Shown here: positions 1,772 through 60,054 of the stretch, piece after piece
How the letters are laid out: every line of letters begins with the position of its first letter
How positions within the stretch are numbered: the first letter of the stretch is position 1
Assembly: GCF_030651915.1 (NCBI RefSeq)
Contig: NZ_JAUSBV010000005.1
Coordinates: forward strand, 124,001-188,000
Length of the DNA stretch: 64,000 nt
Direction: 5' to 3'
DNA from: Parvibaculum sp.
GTDB lineage: Bacteria > Pseudomonadota > Alphaproteobacteria > Parvibaculales > Parvibaculaceae
The notes under the pieces: model-generated
What the model was told of the DNA's origin: nothing
What the model saw: only the letters and a program-made list of their open reading frames with translations
The model's database searches: none
Made by a program: the position numbers and the translations under genes

Positions 1772-2428
1772 TTGACGCTGTTCGACGGTATCGTCATTGC
1801 GGTTCTGCTGATTTCGAGTGTGCTGGCGCTGCTGCGCGGTTTCACCAACGAAATGCTGTCGATCGTGGCCTGGGTGGCCGGGGCGCTGGCGGCGCTGTGG
1901 CTCTTCCCCTATGTCGCACCCTATTTCGCCAAATTCATCACCTCGCCCTGGCTCGCCGCCGTGGTGGCGGCGCTGGTCGTGTTCCTGGCCGGCTACCTGC
2001 TGGTGGCGGCGCTGACGGCGCGCTGGTCGGACGCGCTGATGGATATTCACGACCGGGCCTCGCTGATGGACCGGACGCTGGGCCTTCTGTTCGGGCTGGC
2101 GCGGGGCCTTCTGATTGTCACCGTCGCCTATCTGTTTTTCGTCTGGCTGGTGCCGAATCCGGACGATCACCCGGACTGGATCCGCGACGCGCGGTTCAAA
2201 CCGACGGTCGAAAGCACGGCCAGCCTGCTGTTTTCGCTGGCACCGACCAGCGAAAACCGGCCGGTCGAGACAGCGCCAGCGCGCGCGCCGGCGCCGATAC
2301 CGCAGGCGGAGCCCGCGCCCCGCGACGGACCTGTCAATTCAGGCGCTGACAGGGCAAATGGGCCGGGGTATAACCCGACCGAACGGAGGGGGCTCGATCG
2401 ACTTTTCGAGAACACGACCGGGGAGTGA
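1772..2428 (+). CDS. cvpA: CvpA family membrane protein
   Basis: CvpA is a small inner-membrane protein linked to colicin V production and envelope homeostasis; its molecular role is poorly known. The chosen start is TTG at 1772, giving MTLFDGIVIAVLLISSVLAL as the first helix, with gggagag at 1761-1767 as ribosome binding site. An upstream ATG in the same frame (1691) would overlap radA and add residues unlike the family. About 218 aa are encoded: four hydrophobic segments, then a soluble proline/alanine-rich tail. The stop overlaps a GTG in the purF frame (2425-2428), and cvpA-purF adjacency is widespread in proteobacteria. Confidence 0.88.
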   Translation: MTLFDGIVIAVLLISSVLALLRGFTNEMLSIVAWVAGALAALWLFPYVAPYFAKFITSPWLAAVVAALVVFLAGYLLVAALTARWSDALMDIHDRASLMDRTLGLLFGLARGLLIVTVAYLFFVWLVPNPDDHPDWIRDARFKPTVESTASLLFSLAPTSENRPVETAPARAPAPIPQAEPAPRDGPVNSGADRANGPGYNPTERRGLDRLFENTTGE

Positions 2429-2502
2429 ATGCCGACCCGTTGGGTGGCCCGATGTCGTTCGGGCGGCCCGTTTCCTCCGGAGGCCAGCGCGGAGTCCCGT
2501 CG

Positions 2503-4026
2503 ATGCCCGAGCAGTTGCAGCTCCCCTTTTCGTTTCCTACGCCTGAATCCATGCCGCCACGCGTGTCCCGCTTCATCACCGATGACGATCTGGCGGATGA
2601 CCGTCCCCGCGAGGAGTGTGGCGTGTTTGGGGTGTTCGGCCATCCCGACTCGGCCGCGCTGACGGCTCTCGGCCTGCACGCGCTGCAGCATCGCGGCCAG
2701 GAAGCGGCCGGTATCGTCGCCTATGATGGTGAGCATTTTCATTCGGAGCGGCGGATCGGCCTTGTCGGCGATCATTTTTCCTCGGCCAAGGTCATCGATC
2801 GCCTCAAGGGCGACATGGCCATCGGCCATGTGCGCTATTCGACGACCGGCGAGACGGTGCTGCGCAATGTGCAGCCGCTTTTCGCCGATCTCTATGGCGG
2901 CGGTTTCGCGGTGGCGCATAACGGCAATCTGACCAACGCCATCACGCTTCGCAACGAGCTGGTGCGCGGGGGCGCGATCTTCCAGTCGACGTCGGACACC
3001 GAAACCATCCTGCAATTGGTGGCACAAAGCCGGAAACCGCGTGTGATGGAACGCTTCGTCGATGCGCTGGCGCAGATCGAGGGCGCCTATGCGCTGGTGG
3101 TGCTGACCAACAAGAAGCTGATCGGGGCGCGCGACCCGCTCGGCATCCGGCCGCTCATTCTGGGGCAGCTTGCCGGCGCGCCGATCCTCTGTTCGGAAAC
3201 GGTGGCGCTCGACATTATCGGCGCCGAGTTCGTGCGCGAGATCGAGCCCGGCGAGATCGTGGTGGCGACCAAGGACGGCATCGAATCCATCCGCCCCTTC
3301 CCGCCGCAGCAGGTACGGCCTTGCGTTTTCGAGTACATCTATTTCGCGCGGCCCGACAGCATTGTCGGCGGCAAGAGCGTCTACAATGTGCGCAAGCGGC
3401 TCGGCCAGGAACTGGCGATCGAATCCGCCGTCGATGCGGATGTCGTCATCCCGGTGCCGGATTCGGGCGTGCCGGCGGCGATCGGCTTTGCCGCACAGTC
3501 GGGCATCCCGTTCGAGCTCGGCATTATCCGCAACCATTATGTGGGGCGGACCTTCATCGAGCCGACGCAGCATATCCGCCAGCTCGGCGTCAAACTCAAA
3601 CACAATGCCAATCGCGCGATTGTCGAAGGCAAACGCATTGTGCTCGTCGACGACAGCGTGGTGCGCGGCACGACGTCGGTCAAGATCGTCAAGATGATGT
3701 ACGAGGCGGGCGCGCGCGAGGTGCATATGCGCATCGCCAGTCCGCCGATCACGCATCCGGATTTCTACGGCATCGACACGCCGGAGCGGCAGCAGCTTCT
3801 GGCCGCCAACTACGATCTCGAAGGCATGCGCGCCTATATCGGGGTCGACAGCCTCGCCTTCATCTCCGTCGACGGGCTCTATCGCGCCATGGGCTTTGCC
3901 CATCGCGACCAGGACCACCCGCAATTGACGGATCATTGTTTCACCGGCGACTATCCGACGCCGCTTCTCGACCGAGACGGCGAGCAGCGGACAACGCAAT
4001 TGTCGTTGCTCGCCGAAATAGCCTGA
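2503..4026 (+). CDS. purF: amidophosphoribosyltransferase
   Basis: PurF makes 5-phosphoribosylamine from PRPP and glutamine, the first committed step of purine synthesis. The catalytic N-terminal nucleophile is C39 in ECGVFGVFG, exposed after propeptide removal. The PRPP-binding loop IVLVDDSVVRGTTS lies near residue 380. ATG 2503 is preferred because ggag sits 8 nt upstream; a GTG at 2425 overlapping cvpA is in frame and would lengthen the propeptide by 26 residues. The protein is of the Bacillus-like class by sequence, yet it reads HPDFYGID where the Bacillus enzyme has a cluster-binding cysteine (HPCFYGID), and only one Cys remains before FTGDYPT. The 4Fe-4S cluster is therefore probably absent. 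Confidence 0.95.
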   Translation: MPEQLQLPFSFPTPESMPPRVSRFITDDDLADDRPREECGVFGVFGHPDSAALTALGLHALQHRGQEAAGIVAYDGEHFHSERRIGLVGDHFSSAKVIDRLKGDMAIGHVRYSTTGETVLRNVQPLFADLYGGGFAVAHNGNLTNAITLRNELVRGGAIFQSTSDTETILQLVAQSRKPRVMERFVDALAQIEGAYALVVLTNKKLIGARDPLGIRPLILGQLAGAPILCSETVALDIIGAEFVREIEPGEIVVATKDGIESIRPFPPQQVRPCVFEYIYFARPDSIVGGKSVYNVRKRLGQELAIESAVDADVVIPVPDSGVPAAIGFAAQSGIPFELGIIRNHYVGRTFIEPTQHIRQLGVKLKHNANRAIVEGKRIVLVDDSVVRGTTSVKIVKMMYEAGAREVHMRIASPPITHPDFYGIDTPERQQLLAANYDLEGMRAYIGVDSLAFISVDGLYRAMGFAHRDQDHPQLTDHCFTGDYPTPLLDRDGEQRTTQLSLLAEIA

Positions 4027-6245: not shown

Positions 6246-7634
6246 TTAACGCAGGGCGATCAACGACGCGCTGTCCGTCAGGACATAGACCGTGCCGTCG
6301 GCGACGATCGGCGGGATCAGCGAACCACCCGACAGCGAAATACGGTTGTCGATTTCACCTGTCAACGGTGACACCACCAAGGCCGCGCCATCCGAGGAAA
6401 CAAGGAACAGGCGTTCGCTGATCAGGATCGGGCCGCTCCATTCGATGTTGCCGGTGCGTTTTTCGGGGTTCTTGTAACGCGGCAGCGCCGATATCCAGCG
6501 GATGCGGCCGTCGCGACGCGAAATCGCCAGCAGCTCCTGCGACGTGGTGACGACGAAAATAAACTCGCCGGCAACCCAGGGCGTCTGTACGCCGCCGATG
6601 TCGCGCGTCCAGACGCGCTCGCCGGTGCGCAGATCGATCGACACCATTCGACCCGAATGGCTGATGGCGATAACGCGATCACCATCGATGACGGGGCGGC
6701 CGGCGATGTCATTGAGTTCGCTCAAGGAGGTGACGTTGCCGGTGCGGGTCAGTGAATCGGTCCAGACCGGCGTTCCGTTTTCGACACGCAGCGCCACAAG
6801 TTCGCCCGAGGAATAGGGCGCGATGGCAACCGCACCCGAGACGGCAGGGCTGGTCGAGGTCAGGATGCCGGCACTTTCAACGATGCCCCGATGACGCCAC
6901 AAGACGTCGCCGCTCTCCTGCGAGAGGCAGATCATCTGATTGTCGGCCGTGACGGCGAAAACACGCCCGTCGGTCGCCGTGGGCGCGGCGCGGAACGGAT
7001 CGCCGATCGGCTGCACCCAGAGCTCGGCGCCACTGGCCGCGTCAAGCGCGTGGACGTTGCCAAAGCCGGTGGTCACGAAAAGCTTGCCATTGTCCCAGGC
7101 GACACCACCACCGCGCGCTTCGGCAGCATTCTCTTTTTCTGGGACCAGCGATGCGGTCCAGACCGATTTGCCGGACTGCCGCTCGAAGGCGCGGACACTG
7201 CCACGCGCGTCGAGCACGAAGATTCTGTCGGCGGCGATAACCGGGACGGCCACCAGCCGTGCGGCGCCCGATGAGCCGGAACCGGCATTGACCGACCAGA
7301 TCCGCTCCAGTGAACCCGGTGCCACGAGATGGGACGGTGCGTTGTCCGGTAATCCGCCTGGCTGCGGCCAGTCCGTGTTGGCACGCGCCGAAGGCAGAAA
7401 TACCGGTGCATCGGCAACCGCCGGATCGACTTCCAGCATGGCGCCAAGTTCCATCACCGAAAGACGCTCACCCGGCAGCACGGCCTTGTCGTCGGACGAG
7501 AAGATTCCCGTCACGGTGTCGCAGCCCGCCAGACCGGCCATCGCAAGGCCCAGCATCGCGAACCGAAGCGCCTTGCGGCGCACGGCCCCAAAGCGATGCA
7601 CATTCGAGCCGGCCAACATGAATTCCGCCGTCAT
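6246..7634 (-). CDS. bamB: outer membrane assembly lipoprotein BamB
   Basis: BamB is the beta-propeller lipoprotein of the BAM complex, which inserts beta-barrel proteins into the outer membrane. A basic stretch (RRK), a hydrophobic helix and the lipobox LAGC mark a lipoprotein signal with acylation at C38. The rest carries repeated PQQ-like propeller blades, for example SGAELWVQPIGDPF, TGERVWTRDIGGVQ and DGRIRWISALPR. Its position between a YfgM-like gene (6 bp away) and der supports the assignment. An in-frame ATG five codons downstream is an alternative start. Confidence 0.93.
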   Translation of the reverse strand: MTAEFMLAGSNVHRFGAVRRKALRFAMLGLAMAGLAGCDTVTGIFSSDDKAVLPGERLSVMELGAMLEVDPAVADAPVFLPSARANTDWPQPGGLPDNAPSHLVAPGSLERIWSVNAGSGSSGAARLVAVPVIAADRIFVLDARGSVRAFERQSGKSVWTASLVPEKENAAEARGGGVAWDNGKLFVTTGFGNVHALDAASGAELWVQPIGDPFRAAPTATDGRVFAVTADNQMICLSQESGDVLWRHRGIVESAGILTSTSPAVSGAVAIAPYSSGELVALRVENGTPVWTDSLTRTGNVTSLSELNDIAGRPVIDGDRVIAISHSGRMVSIDLRTGERVWTRDIGGVQTPWVAGEFIFVVTTSQELLAISRRDGRIRWISALPRYKNPEKRTGNIEWSGPILISERLFLVSSDGAALVVSPLTGEIDNRISLSGGSLIPPIVADGTVYVLTDSASLIALR

Positions 7635-51549: not shown

Positions 51550-51833
51550 TGAGCCCTTCGGGGGAAATACATCGATTTTAGCGGATGATTTTGCCGCTCC
51601 ATCATCCCAAAGGCGGCCCACAAAAGCCATAAGCAGCGGCGCGATTTGTGTCAAAAAGCGGTGACAAGCCGTCGGATATGCGGTTAACTGCTTTCGACGG
51701 GGTACGTCAGCGATCAATCGGGCTTCAGCTGCCAGCGACACGGTGGAGAGGCCCAGGGGCGCAAGGAAGAGAAGCCATTGAGGCTCTCCTTGCCACCTTC
51801 AAAATTGATCGCCGTTGGCGAGGCCCCGGTTCC

Positions 51834-53201
51834 ATGTACGCCCCCCTTTCGCATCCCGTTCGACGGATGCATCCGCGATTCGCGATGATGCTTGCCGTCG
51901 TTGCCGCATTGACGCTGTGGATGTCCACCGCGACGCCCGCCAGTGCCGGCTATTATCCACCGGCCCATTCCGATGCCGCCTATTTCCACGATTCGCTTGC
52001 GCCTTATGGCACATGGACGCATCACGCGAGCTATGGCGCGGTCTGGTATCCACGCGGCATGTCGCATGGCTGGCGGCCCTATACGCAGGGCCGCTGGGTC
52101 TGGGACGACGGCTATGGCTGGACCTGGGCATCGGGCTTCGCATGGGGCTGGGCCCCTTTCCATTACGGCAGCTGGATATGGGACGCCGCCTTCGGTTGGA
52201 TCTGGGTGCCCGGTCGTGTGTGGGCACCGGCCTGGGTGACGTGGCGCTACAGCGACAGCTATATCGGCTGGGCGCCCATCGGCTACGGCGTCAGCTGGCG
52301 ATCCTACAATCCGGGCTGGAGCTATGGCGGATGGAACTATGTCCATCGGCAGCATTTCGGCGCGCCGGTCGTCCATCAGCACATCATCGTCGTCAATAAC
52401 TACAAGACGATCTATCACAACACCCATCACTGGGCGCCGCCGCGCAACAAGCACAACCGTGTCGAACATCGCGGCTTCGATCGGGGTTTTGTCGAACGCG
52501 GCAGCCGCTACAAGATCGACCGCGTGCATGCGCGGCCCGAGCACTGGCAGCGAAACGACCATCGGCAAGGACCGGCTGGCAGGGACGACTGGCGCAACAA
52601 CAGACAAGACGGCGTGCGCTATGTTGCGCCAGAGCGGAGAGTCGAGGGACGGCCGGACAGCCAGCGCGACCCGCAGTGGAGCGAGCGACAGGACGGGCAG
52701 CACGTCCGTCCTGTCGATAATCGACGTGATTCCCGGCAGCCGGACCGTCAGCAGCACATGCAGGAATGGCAGCAGATACAGCAACAGCAAAGGCTGCCGC
52801 ATCAGGGGCAAGTTCCACAACGTCAGGCGCAACAGCCGCAGCGGCAAGAACAGCAACGGTCGCGGCAGGCCATGGACCAGCAGCGCCAACAACAGATGCA
52901 GCAACAGCAAAGGCTGCCGCATCAGGGGCAAGTTCCACAACGTCAGGCGCAACAGCCGCAGCGGCAAGAACAGCAACGGTCACGGCAAGCCATGGGCCAA
53001 CAGATGGAGCAACAGCAAAGTCGGCCGCCGCAGGGGCAAGTGCCACAACGTCAGGCACAACAGCCGCAGCGGCAGCCGCAGGTACAAGAGCAGCGCGCAC
53101 CAGAAGCGCAACGCCAACCGCAACAACGCTATGAGCAGCGTGTCGAGCGCCGCGACGAAAGCCGCGATGGGGGTCGCGACGGTGGTCGAACCTGGCGCTG
53201 A
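51834..53201 (+). CDS. DUF6600/YXWGXW-repeat exported protein with Gln-rich tail
   Basis: The protein of about 455 aa has a signal peptide (MHPRFAMMLAVVAALTLWMS, cleavage near ASA), then tryptophan-rich repeats WRPYTQGRWVWDDGYGWTWA, FHYGSWIWDAAFGWIWVPGR and WVTWRYSDSYIGWAPIGYGV. The C-terminal 200 residues are Gln/Arg/Pro-rich with a 40-residue unit RLPHQGQVPQRQAQQPQRQ... present twice almost identically and a third time in part. The likely setting is the cell envelope. Start ATG 51834 or 51867. The function is unknown. Confidence 0.82.
   Translation: MYAPLSHPVRRMHPRFAMMLAVVAALTLWMSTATPASAGYYPPAHSDAAYFHDSLAPYGTWTHHASYGAVWYPRGMSHGWRPYTQGRWVWDDGYGWTWASGFAWGWAPFHYGSWIWDAAFGWIWVPGRVWAPAWVTWRYSDSYIGWAPIGYGVSWRSYNPGWSYGGWNYVHRQHFGAPVVHQHIIVVNNYKTIYHNTHHWAPPRNKHNRVEHRGFDRGFVERGSRYKIDRVHARPEHWQRNDHRQGPAGRDDWRNNRQDGVRYVAPERRVEGRPDSQRDPQWSERQDGQHVRPVDNRRDSRQPDRQQHMQEWQQIQQQQRLPHQGQVPQRQAQQPQRQEQQRSRQAMDQQRQQQMQQQQRLPHQGQVPQRQAQQPQRQEQQRSRQAMGQQMEQQQSRPPQGQVPQRQAQQPQRQPQVQEQRAPEAQRQPQQRYEQRVERRDESRDGGRDGGRTWR
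52780..52981 (+). repeat. tandem 120-bp direct repeat within the Gln-rich tail
   Basis: The DNA from 52780 to 52861 is repeated exactly from 52900 to 52981, an offset of 120 bp (40 codons). A third, diverged copy begins 108 bp further on. Exact identity at synonymous positions shows recent duplication or conversion. Copy number may vary between strains. Confidence 0.75.
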
Positions 53202-53294: not shown

Positions 53295-54896
53295 TTACTC
53301 CGACTTCTCCTCCAAAGCTCGGCGCATTCGGCGAATAACGACCTTGCGCGCACGGTCGTCGGCCGCTGTTTCGAGTTGTTCGCTTATGTCGAGCCATAGT
53401 TTCGACAGATCATTGTGCCAGTCCATCCGCCCGACGAGTTCGGGCTGCAAACGGCGTGGCGCGGGCCGCCGCCGCGCTTCAGGCGCCTCGACGAGCAGAT
53501 CGAACACCTCATCGAGGTCGGGGGCGAAAATGCGTTCGCCATCGAGTCCGAGATCGGTGAGGCGTGCATGGAGGCCCGACAACCCTTCCTGTTCGCCATG
53601 CACCAGTATCGTCCCTCGCATGACCGGGCCGCGCTCTTCAACCCAACGGGCCAGCGCCGGTCCGTCGGCATGACCGGAATAGACATCCAAGGTTCTGATG
53701 CGTGCGCGCACCTTGATTTCCTCGCCCTGGATGCGAACGGCCTTGGCACCCGACAGCAATATGCGGCCGAGCGTCGCTTCCGCCTGATAGCCAACCATGA
53801 TGACCGTCGTGTTCTCGCGCCACAGCCGGTTCTTCAGATGGTGGCGGATGCGGCCGGCGTCGCACATACCGCTGGCGGCGACGATGATGTGACTGCCATC
53901 CATACGTTCGATCATCATGCTTTCGGCGACGGTTTCGGTTGTGCGCACGCCGTGTGCACGCATGGCACGACGAAACTCATCTCCGTTCTCCAGGCTGTCA
54001 GCATGATCGAGAAAGATTTCGGTGGCGCGGATCGCCAGTGGTGAATCGAGAAAGATCGGCACATCACGCACCCGCTTCCCGGCGACCAAAGACAGCAGAT
54101 CGGCAAGCAACTCCTGTGTGCGCTCAACGGCGAAGGTCGGGAAAATCAGGACACCGTTCTTGTTCAGCGCCGCATTGACTTCGTTTGCCAGAAGATCACG
54201 GCGCGCTTCGAGTGTCATCGGCTCGCGCTCGCGAGAGCCATAGGTCGCTTCACAGATCAGATAGTCGAGGTTCTCCGGCGACTCCGGCGCTGGATGAAAG
54301 CTCTTCACTTCCGGGCCAATGTCACCCGAGAATAACAATCTCAGCTTGCGCGGCGTTTTCAGATCGGTATCGATCTCGATTTCAATCGAGGCCGAACCGA
54401 GAATGTGGCCCGCATTCCAGAAGCGGGCGCGAACGCCTTCCGCCGGCTCAATCCATGTGTCATAGGCAACAGGATTGAATGCGCGAAGCGATGCGTCTGC
54501 ATCGGCCACTGTGTAGATTGGCGTTACCCTGGGCCGCCCACGCTGAGCGTTGCGACGGTTGAGCTGTTCGACTTCGAACTCCTGGATATGACCGGCGTCC
54601 GGAAGCATGCAGGACAGAAGATCAATGGTTCCGTGGGTCGCATAGATCGGCCCCGTAAAGCCATGCTTCACAAGTTTCGGGATGAGGCCCGAATGATCGA
54701 TATGGGCATGCGTAAGCAGCACGAAGTCGATCTTTCCCGGATCGAAGGGAAAGTCGGCATAGTTCAGCGCCTTCAACGTTTTCGCGCCCTGGAACATGCC
54801 ACAATCGACGAGAAAACGCGTCTTTTCAGTCTGCAAAAGATAGCAGGAGCCGGTGACGGTGTGGGCCGCGCCGTGAACGCTCAGCGTGATCGACAT
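53295..54896 (-). CDS. beta-CASP metallo-beta-lactamase-fold RNase
   Basis: A 533-aa hydrolase of the MBL/beta-CASP group that cuts or trims RNA. Metal-binding motifs: LLTHAHIDHSGLIPKLVKHG (HxHxDH), NAGHILGSASIEIEI and LFSGDIG. The beta-CASP part has IFPTFAVERTQELL and IIVAASGMCDAGRIRHHLKN, and the closing motif VYSGHADGPALARWV. The start 54896 (MSITLSVHG) has cggaag upstream. Its ATG overlaps the stop of the PRPP synthetase gene by one base (TAATG), so translation is coupled. It ends the five-gene operon. Confidence 0.9.
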   Translation of the reverse strand: MSITLSVHGAAHTVTGSCYLLQTEKTRFLVDCGMFQGAKTLKALNYADFPFDPGKIDFVLLTHAHIDHSGLIPKLVKHGFTGPIYATHGTIDLLSCMLPDAGHIQEFEVEQLNRRNAQRGRPRVTPIYTVADADASLRAFNPVAYDTWIEPAEGVRARFWNAGHILGSASIEIEIDTDLKTPRKLRLLFSGDIGPEVKSFHPAPESPENLDYLICEATYGSREREPMTLEARRDLLANEVNAALNKNGVLIFPTFAVERTQELLADLLSLVAGKRVRDVPIFLDSPLAIRATEIFLDHADSLENGDEFRRAMRAHGVRTTETVAESMMIERMDGSHIIVAASGMCDAGRIRHHLKNRLWRENTTVIMVGYQAEATLGRILLSGAKAVRIQGEEIKVRARIRTLDVYSGHADGPALARWVEERGPVMRGTILVHGEQEGLSGLHARLTDLGLDGERIFAPDLDEVFDLLVEAPEARRRPAPRRLQPELVGRMDWHNDLSKLWLDISEQLETAADDRARKVVIRRMRRALEEKSE

Positions 54897-55801
54897 TACT
54901 TCCGTTTCTCTTCTGTTGTTTCGTCGCGAAGTGCGTGCGCCAGAAGTCCGGCCAGCGGGATCGCATTGGTCGGGTGCGGCACCGAGTCTGCCGACCATAT
55001 CGCGCGCGCGCCCGCTGCGCGAATGTTCGCTTCAATCTTCGCGTCAAAGAGCGCATGCGTGACAGCAACGACGATATCGGCGGCGCCCGCCTGTTTCAGA
55101 CTTTCGACAGCCACGGTCACCGTGCCGCCGCTCGAGACGATGTCATCGGCGACGAGGATTCTGCGTCCGGCGATTTTCGCTGCGGGAAAGGCAATTCGAA
55201 CTTCGCGGTCACCCAGCCGCTCCTTCTTGCCGGTAATCGCCTCGGCATCGAGGGCGCCCGCGATACGGGATACCCATTGAATCGACTCCGCGTCCGGCCC
55301 GGCAATGAGCGTGGACTGCGTGAGGCCCTGCCCGCGGGCGAAATCGGCGATGACTTCGGCCGCAGTGAGATTTTGTGCCTCGACGCCGGGAAAGACGTCG
55401 CGGATATCGGCGACCCGATGGAGATGGGCATCGACCGTCACGATGCGATCGAACATGGTGCCGAGCCAGCCACCGATGACCTTCTGGCTGATTGCCTCGC
55501 CCGCGTGAAAGACCTTGTCCTGACGCATGTAGCAGAGATAGGGTGCGACCAGAACAAGACGCGCAGCGCCGCCGCGCCTGAGTGCCTCGACGGCCAGCGC
55601 CAGTTCGACAAGCTTTCCATTCGGCCGGTCGAGCGGACAATAGAGAATTGTCACCGGCGCCGGCGTCATGATTGTCACACGCGACTCGCCATCAGGAAAA
55701 GTGTGAACCGCGATTTCCCCGAACGGCACACCCAGCGCCTCCGCCATCGCATGCGCGTGGTCGCTTCCGTGGGCAAAGGACTGCACCGCTACGGCGGTCA
55801 C
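54896..55801 (-). CDS. ribose-phosphate pyrophosphokinase, archaeal-type
   Basis: PRPP synthetase-like, 301 aa. The catalytic loop [20 protein letters not shown] matches the archaeal form (YxRQDKxFxxGEAIS) rather than the long bacterial one (RKxRxRxPI). The PRPP loop is [12 protein letters not shown], and [14 protein letters not shown] is the region before it. Start GTG 55801 overlaps the stop of the upstream gene as GTGA and has cggag upstream; a longer frame exists but is not supported. The typical bacterial prs gene is not in this window, so this is probably a second, specialised enzyme. Confidence 0.86.
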
Positions 55802-57312
55802 TTTCCGGCTCCGTTGACACTGAGACCGCCCAGAGCATAGCCATTCGTCTCCCGAGCCGCTTCGATTGCGAAATCGAAATGGGACTGCCCGGCCGAATAG
55901 ATCCGGTAGAGCGGCTCGCCGGCCTCGACCTGGTCGCCGACCCGCTTCAGCAGATCGAGCCCGGCGCCGCGGTCCAGTGGCGCGCCAGCAAGGCGCGCCA
56001 GCTGCGCGATGCGAAAACAATCGATCGAGGCAACAACCCCGTCCGCCGGCGACAGGACGTCCGTCGTCAGGGCCCCAAGCGGGGGACCTGGCGGTGCGTG
56101 CCCCTGAGTATCGATGATGCGATGCATCCGTCTTGCCGCCTCGCCACTGTCGAGCAGTTCGCGCGCACGGGCATAGCCGCCGCCGCCCCTCATCGCCGGA
56201 TCGCCCTCAATGATGCGGCCCGCGAGACGCAACGACTTTTCGCGAAGATCGGTGGGCGCATGCGCTTCGTTGTTCAGCACGGCCATCACGTCGCGCGCCT
56301 CGAGCACGGGCCCTATCCCGCGGCCGACGGGCTGGGCGCCGTCCGTCACCATGACATCGACATGCAACCCCACCTGATCGGCTACATATTCGAAGAGCTT
56401 GCGCAGACGCATCGCCTCATGCGCGTCGCGTACCTTGGCGGTTGGACCGACAGGAATGTCGATCACGAGATGTGTCGATCCCGCGGCCATCTTCTTGGAC
56501 ATGATGGACGCCACCATCTGCTCGCGCGTGTCGAGATTGAGCGGCCGCTCCACGCCGATCAGAATGTCGTCAGCCGGCGAAAGATTGACATGACCGCCCC
56601 AGACGAGACAGCCGTTGCACTCGCCGACCACGGTACGCATCTCCTCGATCGTCAAGTCGACACGGGCAAGAACCTCCATCGTGTCGGCCGTGCCGGCCGG
56701 CGAGGTGATGGCACGCGAGGACGTCTTCGGGATCGTCAATCCATGCGCGGCGACGATCGGCACCACGACCATCGAGGTCCGGTTTCCGGGAATGCCGCCG
56801 ATACAATGCTTGTCGACAACCATCGGCGACGACCATGCCAGGGTGTTGCCGGCGCCGGCCATGGCGCGCGTGAGCTCGAGAAGTTCGCCGGTGGTGAGGA
56901 AGCCTGCGCACGCGACGAGGAAAGCGGCGATTTCCATGTCGGAGTAGCGATAGCCGACAATGTCGCGGATGATCGCCTCGATCTGATGCGCGTTCAGCGT
57001 TTCTCCGATGATCTTGGTGCGCACATATTCGAGACTCTGCGGGCGGCGCGCCGGCGCGATCGTGACCGACGTGCCTTCGGGCAGGCCCATACGTCGAAAA
57101 GCCGGTTCGGCAAGGCCAATCTCCTCCGGACCGACGACCGAAAGGTCATGGCAGATATCAAGGCTCGCAATGATCGAGTGACCGTCATGGACGATTTCCA
57201 GCCGCTTGAAGGCCTGAAAAGCTTCCGGTCGCAACGCCGCGCAGTTCGACGCCAGAACGGCGACGTTCTCGCGCAGTGTGTCGAGCGGTATACGGCGAAT
57301 CTTCAGCTGCAT
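55798..57312 (-). CDS. AMP phosphorylase / archaeal-type thymidine phosphorylase
   Basis: The 504-aa protein belongs to the archaeal DeoA group, known to phosphorolyse AMP (also CMP, UMP) to the base and ribose-1,5-bisphosphate. Signatures: [40 protein letters not shown] and [19 protein letters not shown]. The classical bacterial thymidine phosphorylase has different text there (GGxGD, SGRGLGHTGGT). The N-terminal extension of about 85 residues is also the archaeal form. The stop overlaps the PRPP synthetase start. It lies 29 bp after the amidohydrolase. Confidence 0.87.
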
Positions 57313-57341: not shown

Positions 57342-59225
57342 TCAGGCGGCGTAGATGGTTTCGCCCCGCTTGATCGTCTCGACGATCGTGAGTTCGCGCA
57401 GAGCGGACGGATCGATCACTTCGGGGTCTTCGGCCATAATCACAAAATCGGCCAGCTTGCCTTCCTCGATCGACCCCTTGATGTCGTCTTCGAAATGCTG
57501 ATAGGCCGCATCGATGGTGATACCGCGCAAGGCATCGTAGGCGCTTATGCGCTGATCTTCTCCCAATACCTGGCCGCTGCGCGTGCGCCTGTTGGTCGCA
57601 GACCAGAGCAGCATGCGGCAATCGGAGGGAGCCACCGGCGAATCATTGTGCAGCGTGTAACGCATGCCGCGGTCGACGGTCGAACGCACCGGACTGATGC
57701 GCGCCGCGCGTGCCGGACCCAACACCGAATCGCGGTGCCAATCGCCCCAATAGAATGTATGCGTGACAAAGTAGGACGGCATTACGCCGAGTTTTTCCAT
57801 TCGATCAAGCTGGTCCTCGCGCAAGGTCTGGGCGTGGATGACTGTTGGTCGCCGATCACCGAGACCGTACTTCGCCGTCGCCTTTTCGATGGCGGCGATG
57901 AACTGGTCGGCGGCCGCGTCGCCGTTGCAATGGGCGTATACCTGCCAGCCACGGGCGAAGGACTCATCAACATAGTTGGCCGCCGTCAGGTCGTCGACGA
58001 TCCGATATCCGCGATAGTCCGGCTTGAAACCCGGCGGCACGACTTCATAGGGTTCGGTGAGCCAGGCCGTCTTGGCTTGCGGCGAACCATCGAGCATCAG
58101 CTTGATGCCACCGATCTTGAAGCCGTTGTAATCCTTTCGCACCTCGACATCGCCGCGCGCGAGATCGTCGATGTGGGTAAAGAAGGGATAACCGATCACG
58201 TCGATTTTCAAGCGATCACGCTCGGCCGCGAGCGTCAGCAGGTCGTAGTCGGGGCGCCGCGTCGCGCCGTCCTGCGCAGTCGTGATGCCCCAGGCGGCGT
58301 ATTGATCCTGCACCTTGTCGAGCAGATCGAGCAACTCATCCTTCGACGCCTCCGGCAGGCGCGGCAGGGCGAGCGAAATGGCGCCTTCCTCAAGAATGCC
58401 GTTCGGTTCTCTGGTACCGGGCCAGCGGCGGATGACACCGCCGGCGGGATCGGGCGTATCGGCCGTGATGCCGAGCAGGTTCAGCGCATATGAATTCACG
58501 ACTACGACATGGAGCGAAGCGTGATAAGCGAGCACCGGTTGCTCGGTCGACACTTCGTCGAGATCGGTGCGGGTGATGGCGCGCTTTTCAGCCAATAACG
58601 AGTCGTCGTAGTTCGCGCCGAGAATCCAGCCGCCGCGTCCGCCACCGGTTTTCTCGCGATATTTCAACAACTCGTTCCTGATGTCGGCGATGCTCCCGAC
58701 AGGGCCTGCCGGGATCGGCGCGAGGTTCTGGAAGCCCATCAGCAACGCCGTCAGGGAAACATGGCCGTGGCAGTCGATGAAACCGGGCAACATTGTCTTG
58801 CCGCCGAGATCGACGATGCGGGCGCCGCTGCCCGCACGCGACGCAACGTCCGCCTCTCGGCCGACCGCGAGAATGCGTCCTCCCTTGACAGCGACCGCTT
58901 CGGCGACCGGCAGGGCCGCATTCATCGTGCGAATGGTGCCGCCGCGATAGATCGTGGCGCCGCTGGACGCTGCGCGGGCGCGCCGCGTCGACCCGCCGGC
59001 GATGGCGGGCGCGGTGAAGGCGAGCGCCACGGCAGCGCCTGCAAGCACGTCGCCGCCGGCACGCGAGACGCCGAGCGCCGTCAGCATGCCGGCCGTCAAC
59101 GCCGCGCCGGCGCCAAAAAAGCCGCGGCGGCTCAGATGTTCGCGTTTCGGCGGATAGGCGCCCCAGACATAGGGTGTGCAGCAGGGACAGTTTCCACGAT
59201 GGGTCTTCGGATCGTCGTATGACAT
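57342..59225 (-). CDS. Tat-exported amidohydrolase (YtcJ-like)
   Basis: A 627-aa metal-dependent hydrolase of the YtcJ/NfdA type, which removes N- or O-acyl groups from small molecules. A cysteine-rich N-terminus (GNCPCCTPYVWGAYPP) comes before a twin-arginine motif SRRGFFGAG (R33, R34) and hydrophobic stretch. The metal site begins GGKTMLPGFIDCHGHV, and ends with LHNDSPVAP and the closing strand GKLADFVIMAEDPEVIDP. Start 59225 follows gaggtatcg. It lies 22 bp after the enoyl-CoA hydratase gene. Confidence 0.9.
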   Translation of the reverse strand: MSYDDPKTHRGNCPCCTPYVWGAYPPKREHLSRRGFFGAGAALTAGMLTALGVSRAGGDVLAGAAVALAFTAPAIAGGSTRRARAASSGATIYRGGTIRTMNAALPVAEAVAVKGGRILAVGREADVASRAGSGARIVDLGGKTMLPGFIDCHGHVSLTALLMGFQNLAPIPAGPVGSIADIRNELLKYREKTGGGRGGWILGANYDDSLLAEKRAITRTDLDEVSTEQPVLAYHASLHVVVVNSYALNLLGITADTPDPAGGVIRRWPGTREPNGILEEGAISLALPRLPEASKDELLDLLDKVQDQYAAWGITTAQDGATRRPDYDLLTLAAERDRLKIDVIGYPFFTHIDDLARGDVEVRKDYNGFKIGGIKLMLDGSPQAKTAWLTEPYEVVPPGFKPDYRGYRIVDDLTAANYVDESFARGWQVYAHCNGDAAADQFIAAIEKATAKYGLGDRRPTVIHAQTLREDQLDRMEKLGVMPSYFVTHTFYWGDWHRDSVLGPARAARISPVRSTVDRGMRYTLHNDSPVAPSDCRMLLWSATNRRTRSGQVLGEDQRISAYDALRGITIDAAYQHFEDDIKGSIEEGKLADFVIMAEDPEVIDPSALRELTIVETIKRGETIYAA

Positions 59226-59247
59226 CGATACCTCGGATAGCGGCGTC

Positions 59248-60054
59248 TCAGCGCCCGGTGAAATTCGGCGACCGCTTCTCAAGGAAGGCCGCGATGGCTT
59301 CGCGGCTGTCTTCGCCGGTGGCGGCGAGCGCAAACTGGTCGGCATCCATGAAGGTCACAGCAGCGTTGAGCGCCGTCGCCGCCTGCGTGATGCCACGCTT
59401 TGCCATACGCACCGAGACCGGCGGCAGAGCGGCGACCTTTTCGGCCCAGCGGTGGGCGCTCTCGAGCGCCTTGCCATCGTCGCAGATTTCGTCGATGAGG
59501 CCCCATTGTTCGGCTTGCTCTGCGCCGACCCGTTCGCCGAAGATGGTAAGTTGCTTGGCGCGAGAGGGCCCTATCAAGTTCACCATACGCGGCTGCGTGT
59601 GCCAGCTCATGTTCATGCCGAGCGGGATTTCCGGGAGACGGAAATGTGCGCCGCGTCCGGCAATGCGGAAATCGCAAGCAACCGATAATGCGACGCCTCC
59701 GCCGATACAGAAACCTTCGATGGCGACAATCGTGACCTGGTCAAGCGCTTCCCAAGCGTCACACATATCGGGGCCGGCACGCAGCATTTCGCGCCGCTCC
59801 AGAAGCGATGCCGAAGCGCGTTTTACCATTTCGGGATCGGCGAGATCAGCGCCCCCGGTAAAAGCCTTCCCGCCGGTCAGGATAACGGCGCTTGTTGTCA
59901 CATCATCGCGCAACAGGCGTGCGGTCGCGGTGAGATCGCGCAGCAGGCGGGCCGAAAGCGCATTGACGCGATCGCCGCGGTCGAAGCGGACGGTGGCCAC
60001 GCGGCCGGCGCGCTCAATCGTAATGAACTCGCCGACTTTTTCGCTCTGCACCAT
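59248..60054 (-). CDS. enoyl-CoA hydratase/isomerase family protein
   Basis: A 268-aa crotonase-fold protein. It has the CoA-binding turn AVILTGGKAFTGGADLADPE and the oxyanion-hole EGFCIGGGVALSVACDFRIA, and a later LPEIPLGMNMSWHTQPRMVN. The usual catalytic Glu pair is at EIPLG. It could hydrate enoyl-CoA or shift a double bond. Start 60054 follows agggggtggt. It is the first gene of the operon that carries the nucleotide module, and its own upstream region is separated from the next gene by a terminator. Confidence 0.9.
   Translation of the reverse strand: MVQSEKVGEFITIERAGRVATVRFDRGDRVNALSARLLRDLTATARLLRDDVTTSAVILTGGKAFTGGADLADPEMVKRASASLLERREMLRAGPDMCDAWEALDQVTIVAIEGFCIGGGVALSVACDFRIAGRGAHFRLPEIPLGMNMSWHTQPRMVNLIGPSRAKQLTIFGERVGAEQAEQWGLIDEICDDGKALESAHRWAEKVAALPPVSVRMAKRGITQAATALNAAVTFMDADQFALAATGEDSREAIAAFLEKRSPNFTGR

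Follow-up and report, generated by a model that had tools for sequence, protein, structure and literature searches.

A candidate module for recovering RNA ribose that pairs an NMP phosphorylase-type enzyme with a divergent PRPP-synthetase paralogue in Parvibaculum and other Pseudomonadota

Introduction

The 64,000-nucleotide stretch of Parvibaculum sp. contig NZ_JAUSBV010000005.1 analysed here (the window) carries three overlapping minus-strand genes, from 57312 to 53295, encoding a nucleoside monophosphate (NMP) phosphorylase-type protein, a paralogue of phosphoribosyl pyrophosphate (PRPP) synthetase that we term PRS′, and a nuclease of the metallo-β-lactamase (MBL)/β-CASP/RMMBL type. By its sequence, PRS′ is a separate subfamily of the PRPP-synthetase fold, and in both genome samples surveyed it occurs only where the phosphorylase is also encoded. 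Our preferred reading, which is plausible though somewhat short of an even chance, is that the trio would act as a dedicated bacterial module that extracts ribose phosphate from RNA-derived nucleotides, by way of NMPs, ribose-1,5-bisphosphate (R15P) and ribose-5-phosphate (R5P), with PRS′ taking the last step. The gene families, and an operon of this kind in expression tables, are already known; what is new here is how strictly the two genes co-occur, which residues mark the subfamily, and the link to phosphoketolase. The literature searched included the accessible text of PMC6515984, PMC9104804, PMC9700705, PMC9232217 and PMC6332680, with most subscription journals outside it, and no proposed function for the bacterial phosphorylase–PRS′ pair was found there.

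Conservation of the gene pair

The survey covered 299 genomes of the phylum and 40 genomes of the window's family; G numbers denote genomes and L numbers loci. In the phylum sample PRS′ was called at 260 bits or above, the next separate match lying at 168 bits, and at most 4 or 7 candidate stretches were scored per genome, so that a few copies were possibly missed. The phosphorylase is present in 36 of the 299 genomes (35 above the cut-off, and G255 with a 428-bit match containing an internal stop), and PRS′ in 34, every one of which is among those 36 (Fisher p = 9e-43, uncorrected for phylogeny). At 36 of the 38 phosphorylase loci in this sample a PRS′ gene lies nearby on the same strand, immediately downstream in 34 (G236 being counted by way of a second fragment) and about 4 kb upstream in two; the other two loci are without it. 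Within the family, the phosphorylase is above the cut-off in 23 of 40 genomes, comprising 23 of the 27 in the genus and none of the 13 outside it. PRS′ is found in 21 (20 above the cut-off and one split at a contig end), and all 21 are among the 23 with the phosphorylase; in the other two, G325 and G330, the phosphorylase loci run into contig ends. A one-off arrangement, set beforehand as the outcome that would speak against the first-pass annotation of this DNA, is ruled out by the 36 of 38 loci in the phylum and the 21 of 21 genomes in the family.

The two proteins also diverge together. Their pairwise distances correlate across 47 loci (Mantel r = 0.885, with none of 999 permutations as high), and a full-length PRS′ lies within 7 kb of the phosphorylase in 47 of 50 loci, a set made up of 49 fetched loci and the window; L033, with no phosphorylase on its contig, was left out of the neighbourhood counts, and L039, with a 26% PRS, was unused. 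A candidate PRS′ without a phosphorylase, in G312, was rejected, its 130-bit PRS match having none of E172, D198 and R129, and the second PRS match in G318 proved to be a fragment of the housekeeping gene. In L062, L072 and L075 PRS′ sits within long open frames, which raised the possibility of a phosphorylase–PRS fusion; for L062 this was rejected, as the frame offset there marks an overlapping frame. Two genomes of the window's family, G310 and G318, each contain two phosphorylase loci, and G312 has a further PRS paralogue (L107, about 2247–3092) that is 32% identical to the housekeeping enzyme and lacks the catalytic-motif residues Q94, K193 and R195 in the alignment.

The phosphorylase

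The first gene (55798–57312, minus strand; 504 amino acids) belongs to the NF003338/TIGR02645 family, scoring 694 bits against NF003338 (cut-off 434) and 655 bits against TIGR02645 (cut-off 434.6). Against the adenosine monophosphate (AMP) phosphorylase equivalog of NCBI, TIGR03327, it reaches 500 bits, under the cut-off of 535; by these scores the protein is in the same broad family as AMP phosphorylase and outside the equivalog. Its best matches among solved structures, 4ga5 and 4ga4, bear the label 'Putative thymidine phosphorylase' in the table of matches; we take them to be the AMP phosphorylase of Thermococcus kodakarensis. Thirty-four signature columns across the 50 loci are common to the T. 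kodakarensis protein and at least 95% of the lettered sequences, and are different in Thermus pyrimidine phosphorylase. All 11 positions that we presume to contact AMP in the T. kodakarensis enzyme are identical in the window protein, and each is kept in at least 49 of the 50 loci; the pyrimidine phosphorylase differs at seven and is identical at four. The archaeal AMP-phosphorylase signatures reported at first pass thus stand as regards family scores and signature columns, with the equivalog cut-off missed. Assignment as a thymidine phosphorylase (DeoA) was rejected on a TIGR02643 score of 139 bits against a cut-off of 570.7. No second phosphorylase of the family is present in the window genome, where the next NF003338 match is at 28 bits. 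From its family membership, the enzyme is predicted to phosphorolyse NMPs to R15P and free base.

This places the first step close to that of the archaeal NMP shunt, or pentose bisphosphate pathway. In T. kodakarensis, according to the accessible text of PMC9700705, an NMP phosphorylase converts AMP, CMP and UMP to R15P, which then passes through an isomerase to RuBisCO. The likeness extends to the broad family of the first enzyme, its signature columns and the predicted products, R15P and base. The two systems part thereafter, as the window genome has neither RuBisCO nor R15P isomerase above the cut-off, and the usual partner is instead a PRPP-synthetase paralogue. The earlier remark that the window bears no sign of RuBisCO extends to the whole assembly, which yields no match to PF00016 (positive in 5 of 14 control genomes), and the RuBisCO route was rejected for this genome. 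No R15P isomerase scores above the cut-off either; the sole match reaches 138 of 314 bits, and this candidate was set aside as it passes the MtnA models. PhnN, a family presumably unrelated to PRS′, is likewise absent above the TIGR02322 cut-off, the sole match (50 of 156 bits) being a candidate rejected on passing the guanylate kinase model.

The PRPP-synthetase paralogue

The second gene (54896–55801, minus strand; GTG start, 301 amino acids) falls in the NF005537 subfamily at 340 bits (cut-off 322). Its product carries the motif RQDKxFxxGEAIS at R93–S105, on which the first-pass annotation called it an archaeal-type PRPP synthetase. The loop motif is present; over aligned positions the protein is otherwise 28% identical to the Methanocaldococcus jannaschii enzyme and 27% to both Escherichia coli prs and the separate housekeeping prs of its own genome (the E. 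coli and M. jannaschii sequences being partial-length), so that the resemblance is one of the loop only. The structure predicted for PRS′ has a mean predicted local distance difference test score (pLDDT) of 87.8 across six sequences, with residues 92–103, which cover the RQD motif, below 50, and all 50 Foldseek matches listed for the model are PRPP synthetases, both class I and archaeal.

Much of the PRPP-synthetase active site is retained. Among 47 aligned members of the subfamily R93, Q94, D95, H126, D170, K193, R195, D219, D220 and T227 are invariant, as are F35, D37 and E39 in the 45 members with letters there. The E. coli counterparts F35, D37, H131, D170, D220, D221 and T228 contact ADP, Mg or R5P, according to the accessible text of PMC9232217. 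The subfamily also has residues of its own, at positions where the E. coli, M. jannaschii and own housekeeping enzymes all differ: H128 and R129 (both 47 of 47), E172 (47), S173 (44), W176 (46), D198 (47), H276 (40) and N279 (41). Several of these stand as hallmarks beside the catalytic motifs, in the form of an invariant HR after the catalytic histidine, GPDxE and KxRxxD. At the position of E. coli R99, reported as a binder of the β-phosphate (PMC9232217, accessible text), 21 of 47 members have K or R, the window protein having K, and 26 have T, I, A, M, V, Q or C. PRS′ thus shares with class I and archaeal class III PRPP synthetases its predicted fold and most ATP-, Mg- and R5P-binding residues, whose roles are taken from the same source, and differs from them in being about 27–28% identical to one member of each class, in its own invariant residues and in its restriction, in both genome samples, to phosphorylase genomes.

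Linkage to phosphoketolase and acetate kinase

Of 63 phosphorylase loci, 8 have a phosphoketolase gene close to the pair (L057, L068, L069, L070 and L080, and L100, L101 and L102 of the window's genus). The 63 loci comprise 56 and a further seven (L100–L106) that were picked from the window's family after the family scans, three of them for an upstream PRS′; the rate is therefore biased, and the phylum sample taken by itself gives 5 of 38 loci. The L057 phosphoketolase passes the NCBIfam cut-offs and the L102 copy is 79% identical to it; the other six are of a divergent class, in which L069 is above the Pfam cut-offs for both XFP and XFP_N, and the copies in L068, L070 and L080 pass the XFP_N one. 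Acetate kinase matches occur in 7 of the 63 loci (L055, L068, L069, L070, L071, L100 and L102), 1.6–10 kb from the phosphorylase. The L070 match passes a curated model (333 bits against 293), and those of the other loci were found by tblastn alone: the L102 match is full-length, those in L071 and L100 run off the edge of the stretch and that in L055 is 32% identical. The order PRS′–phosphoketolase–β-CASP–phosphorylase recurs in L068, L070, L100 and L101, the last two from the window's genus. L102, of that genus too, likewise combines all four genes. A universal phosphoketolase link was rejected, the window genome itself having no phosphoketolase.

That phosphoketolase and acetate kinase genes recur beside the pair points to ribose breakdown, not to the making of PRPP. 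The first-pass annotation had proposed a salvage of RNA to PRPP; with this linkage, and with a separate housekeeping prs in the genome, PRPP formation is left unsupported. Its proviso that the PRPP-synthetase-like enzyme may use a substrate other than R5P was well judged.

The nuclease gene

The third gene (53295–54896, minus strand; 533 amino acids) encodes a protein with Pfam Lactamase_B, Beta-Casp and RMMBL domains, all above their cut-offs, and seven of seven sought motifs (HxHxDH, the downstream histidine and aspartate, and the β-CASP motifs), which bears out the β-CASP fold assigned to it at first pass. Among the 28 adjacent homologues HxHxDH is present in every one, and the remaining motifs in 12 to 27. 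Fold and motifs together suggest that the enzyme cleaves RNA to 5′-NMPs. In its MBL, β-CASP and RMMBL parts, with their complete motifs, it resembles both the aCPSF1-type β-CASP RNases and the MBL protein Cas14 of type VII CRISPR, the latter being its best NCBIfam model; it stays under both curated cut-offs, at 237 of 580 and 326 of 800 bits, respectively. A β-CASP gene lies within 7 kb in 28 of the 50 loci, downstream of the phosphorylase in 15 and upstream in 13, and an adjacent β-CASP gene was accordingly rejected as an obligatory part. A functional tie to the pair is nevertheless favoured, because the gene sits with it in differing orders.

The trio overlaps by four bases (GTGA, 55798–55801) between the phosphorylase stop and the PRS′ start, and by one base at 54896 within TAATG (54894–54898), which joins the PRS′ stop to the β-CASP start. 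The overlaps and coordinates given at first pass are correct, and the strand, unstated there, is minus. From these overlaps the three products are probably made together.

Proposed mechanism

In the scheme that we prefer, a β-CASP nuclease, whose gene adjoins the pair in about half of the loci, would cut RNA to 5′-NMPs, and the phosphorylase would split these with phosphate into free base and R15P. PRS′ would then act on the R15P and release R5P to central metabolism, most probably through transfer of the C1 phosphate to AMP or ADP, for instance R15P + AMP → R5P + ADP, a substrate and direction that we infer. Where phosphoketolase and acetate kinase adjoin, R5P would be converted via xylulose-5-phosphate into acetyl-phosphate, with a yield of ATP; the window's organism has neither enzyme, and there R5P would join the ordinary pentose phosphate pathway. 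The PRS′ step would be the PRPP-synthetase reaction in reverse, with one phosphate fewer on each partner. In the reverse reaction of PRPP synthetase, AMP attacks the phosphorus on C1 of PRPP to give R5P and ATP; because R15P is PRPP without its outer phosphate, the same geometry is predicted to give R5P and ADP. PRS′ is the best candidate for the R15P-consuming step because it is found only with the phosphorylase, and R5P as its product fits the phosphoketolase–acetate kinase linkage, which PRPP does not. A fuller version holds that PRS′ is a new enzyme, an R15P:AMP (or ADP) phosphotransferase that would recover the phosphate added to ribose during NMP phosphorolysis and, with phosphoketolase and acetate kinase, allow a bacterium to draw ATP from fermentation of the ribose of its own RNA at low oxygen; this we regard as doubtful.

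Several observations weigh against the proposed module. The transfer of a sugar-1-phosphate to AMP is somewhat uphill. PRS′ retains nearly all of the PRPP-synthetase active-site residues checked, including the K-x-R loop. The phosphorylase occurs without PRS′ in G249, where the match is missing the N-terminal 84 positions, and in G255, and 22 of the 50 loci are without an adjacent β-CASP gene. Phosphoketolase and acetate kinase are both absent above the cut-off from the window genome, and at the genome level the association with phosphoketolase is weak (11 of 36 genomes against 37 of 263, p = 0.026, uncorrected for phylogeny). Activity of the divergent phosphoketolases is also less sure, judged by sequence: the two scanned at the NCBIfam phosphoketolase cut-offs, L080 and L070, reach 141 against 777 and 131 against 962 bits. 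Among plasmids, Niveispirillum has the phosphorylase without PRS′ beside it, and no PRS′ for it is among the 60 matches listed; conversely, plasmids of Azospirillum lipoferum 4B and Azospirillum sp. B510 carry PRS′, and neither strain is among the 60 phosphorylase matches listed, in a collection outside which their chromosomes lie. Finally, neither the window trio nor its Parvibaculum relatives have an upstream FixK/FNR box that stands out.

Alternative functions of PRS′

The main rival, in essence the RNA-to-PRPP module of the first-pass annotation, which is unlikely in our estimation though it deserves serious attention, is that PRS′ is an ordinary PRPP synthase (R5P + ATP → PRPP + AMP) that salvages the bases freed from NMPs, while another enzyme turns R15P to R5P. 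The retained active-site residues speak for it, as do the predicted PRPP-synthetase fold and the family name NF005537. Yet the window genome already has a housekeeping prs, and an ordinary synthase would leave unexplained why PRS′ was found in phosphorylase genomes only, in both samples, why subfamily-only residues lie beside its catalytic motifs, and why 26 of the 47 members have lost K or R where E. coli has R99. The phosphoketolase linkage would also be unaccounted for, since phosphoketolase would compete for R5P.

It is improbable that PRS′ instead phosphorylates R15P directly (R15P + ATP → PRPP + ADP) in place of PhnN, the R15P phosphokinase named for E. coli in the accessible text of PMC9700705, which would likewise consume R15P. 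Such a kinase would suit a genome whose only PhnN match is a guanylate kinase, and a protein tied to a predicted R15P producer; it would need a transfer of the γ-phosphate onto a phosphate, probably in another register than the diphosphoryl transfer of the retained residues, and PRPP as its product leaves the phosphoketolase linkage unexplained. Slighter still is the prospect of a stress or dormancy module that removes AMP or other NMPs, or makes free bases, at low energy with the sugar product incidental, an idea suggested by several plasmid loci that neighbour genes for universal stress proteins, metal transport or an alternate F1F0 ATPase; it explains neither the near-constant PRS′ partner nor the phosphoketolase–acetate kinase linkage.

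Regulation and distribution

Bradyrhizobium diazoefficiens carries the same three products in the same order, as bll3117-bll3116-bll3115. In its accessible text, PMC6515984 lists all three among microoxia-induced proteins, with no FixK2-target mark and no bacteroid value, and PMC9104804 assigns them to a predicted operon whose FixK2 box is at -74, with bll3117 and bll3115 lowered in two fixK2 mutants; a phosphoketolase–acetate kinase operon stands in the same table. The accessible part of PMC5017801 names bll3115 once. As far as these texts are accessible, the genes figure in expression tables only, with no function proposed there. The equation with our loci is based on names, gene order, the same order in Bradyrhizobium septentrionale (L048) and the box in L078, rather than on the B. 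diazoefficiens sequences. The upstream site of L078 is the published Bradyrhizobium box, with seven of eight core bases, a score reached by 6 of 100 shuffles. The full core of eight is present in L061, L066 and L080 (in L080 three bases from the start), and seven of eight in L053, L054, L078, L079 and others. FixK/FNR control of the window trio was rejected: its best site has six of eight core bases, matched in 57 of 100 mononucleotide shuffles. The window copy is therefore without a comparable FixK2-type box, and low-oxygen control is not transferable to it.

The pair or trio is also carried on plasmids of Bradyrhizobium, Novosphingobium, Variovorax, Legionella, Phenylobacterium, Methylophaga, Acidovorax, Sphingobium, Leisingera and Pontibacter (Bacteroidota), and two more plasmid records carry no annotation. 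The phosphorylase and PRS′ plasmid lists were compared in part, 55 and 42 records being outside the comparison. In Azospirillum oryzae and Niveispirillum a phosphorylase–MBL arrangement has no PRS′ beside it; in A. oryzae, PRS′ stands alone on another plasmid of the same strain, with the subfamily residues kept except W176. On two Cupriavidus plasmids both genes are present, separated by about 18 kb in one and about 40 kb in the other. Azospirillum PRS′ genes standing alone on plasmids lie at 6983–7894 of L098 and 6902–7828 of L099. Plasmid copies L050, L054, L092, L093 and L094 are near metal P-type ATPases, LemA/TPM proteins, universal stress proteins or catalase, and an alternate F1F0 ATPase β gene lies near the pair in L051, L057 and L063.

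In the window, an Amidohydro_3 amidohydrolase gene (57342–59345, minus strand), whose product has by eye a twin-arginine-like N-terminus, ends 29 bases before the phosphorylase start, and because of this short gap the trio may share a transcript with it. L031, L032, L034 and L036 likewise have a homologue upstream. On the other side, at 51648–53201 (plus strand), is a gene for a DUF6600 protein whose long tail, rich in Q, R and P, is made of near-identical repeats.

Conclusion

In the records examined, bacterial proteins of the phosphorylase family go under the name of thymidine phosphorylase, and the PRS encoded with them is annotated simply as a PRPP synthase. If the pair handles R15P, many Pseudomonadota would hold a RuBisCO-free counterpart of the archaeal NMP shunt. 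The proposed module, if real, would extend the PRPP-synthetase fold to a new reaction, and would explain the fate of RNA ribose in low-oxygen or stressed cells.

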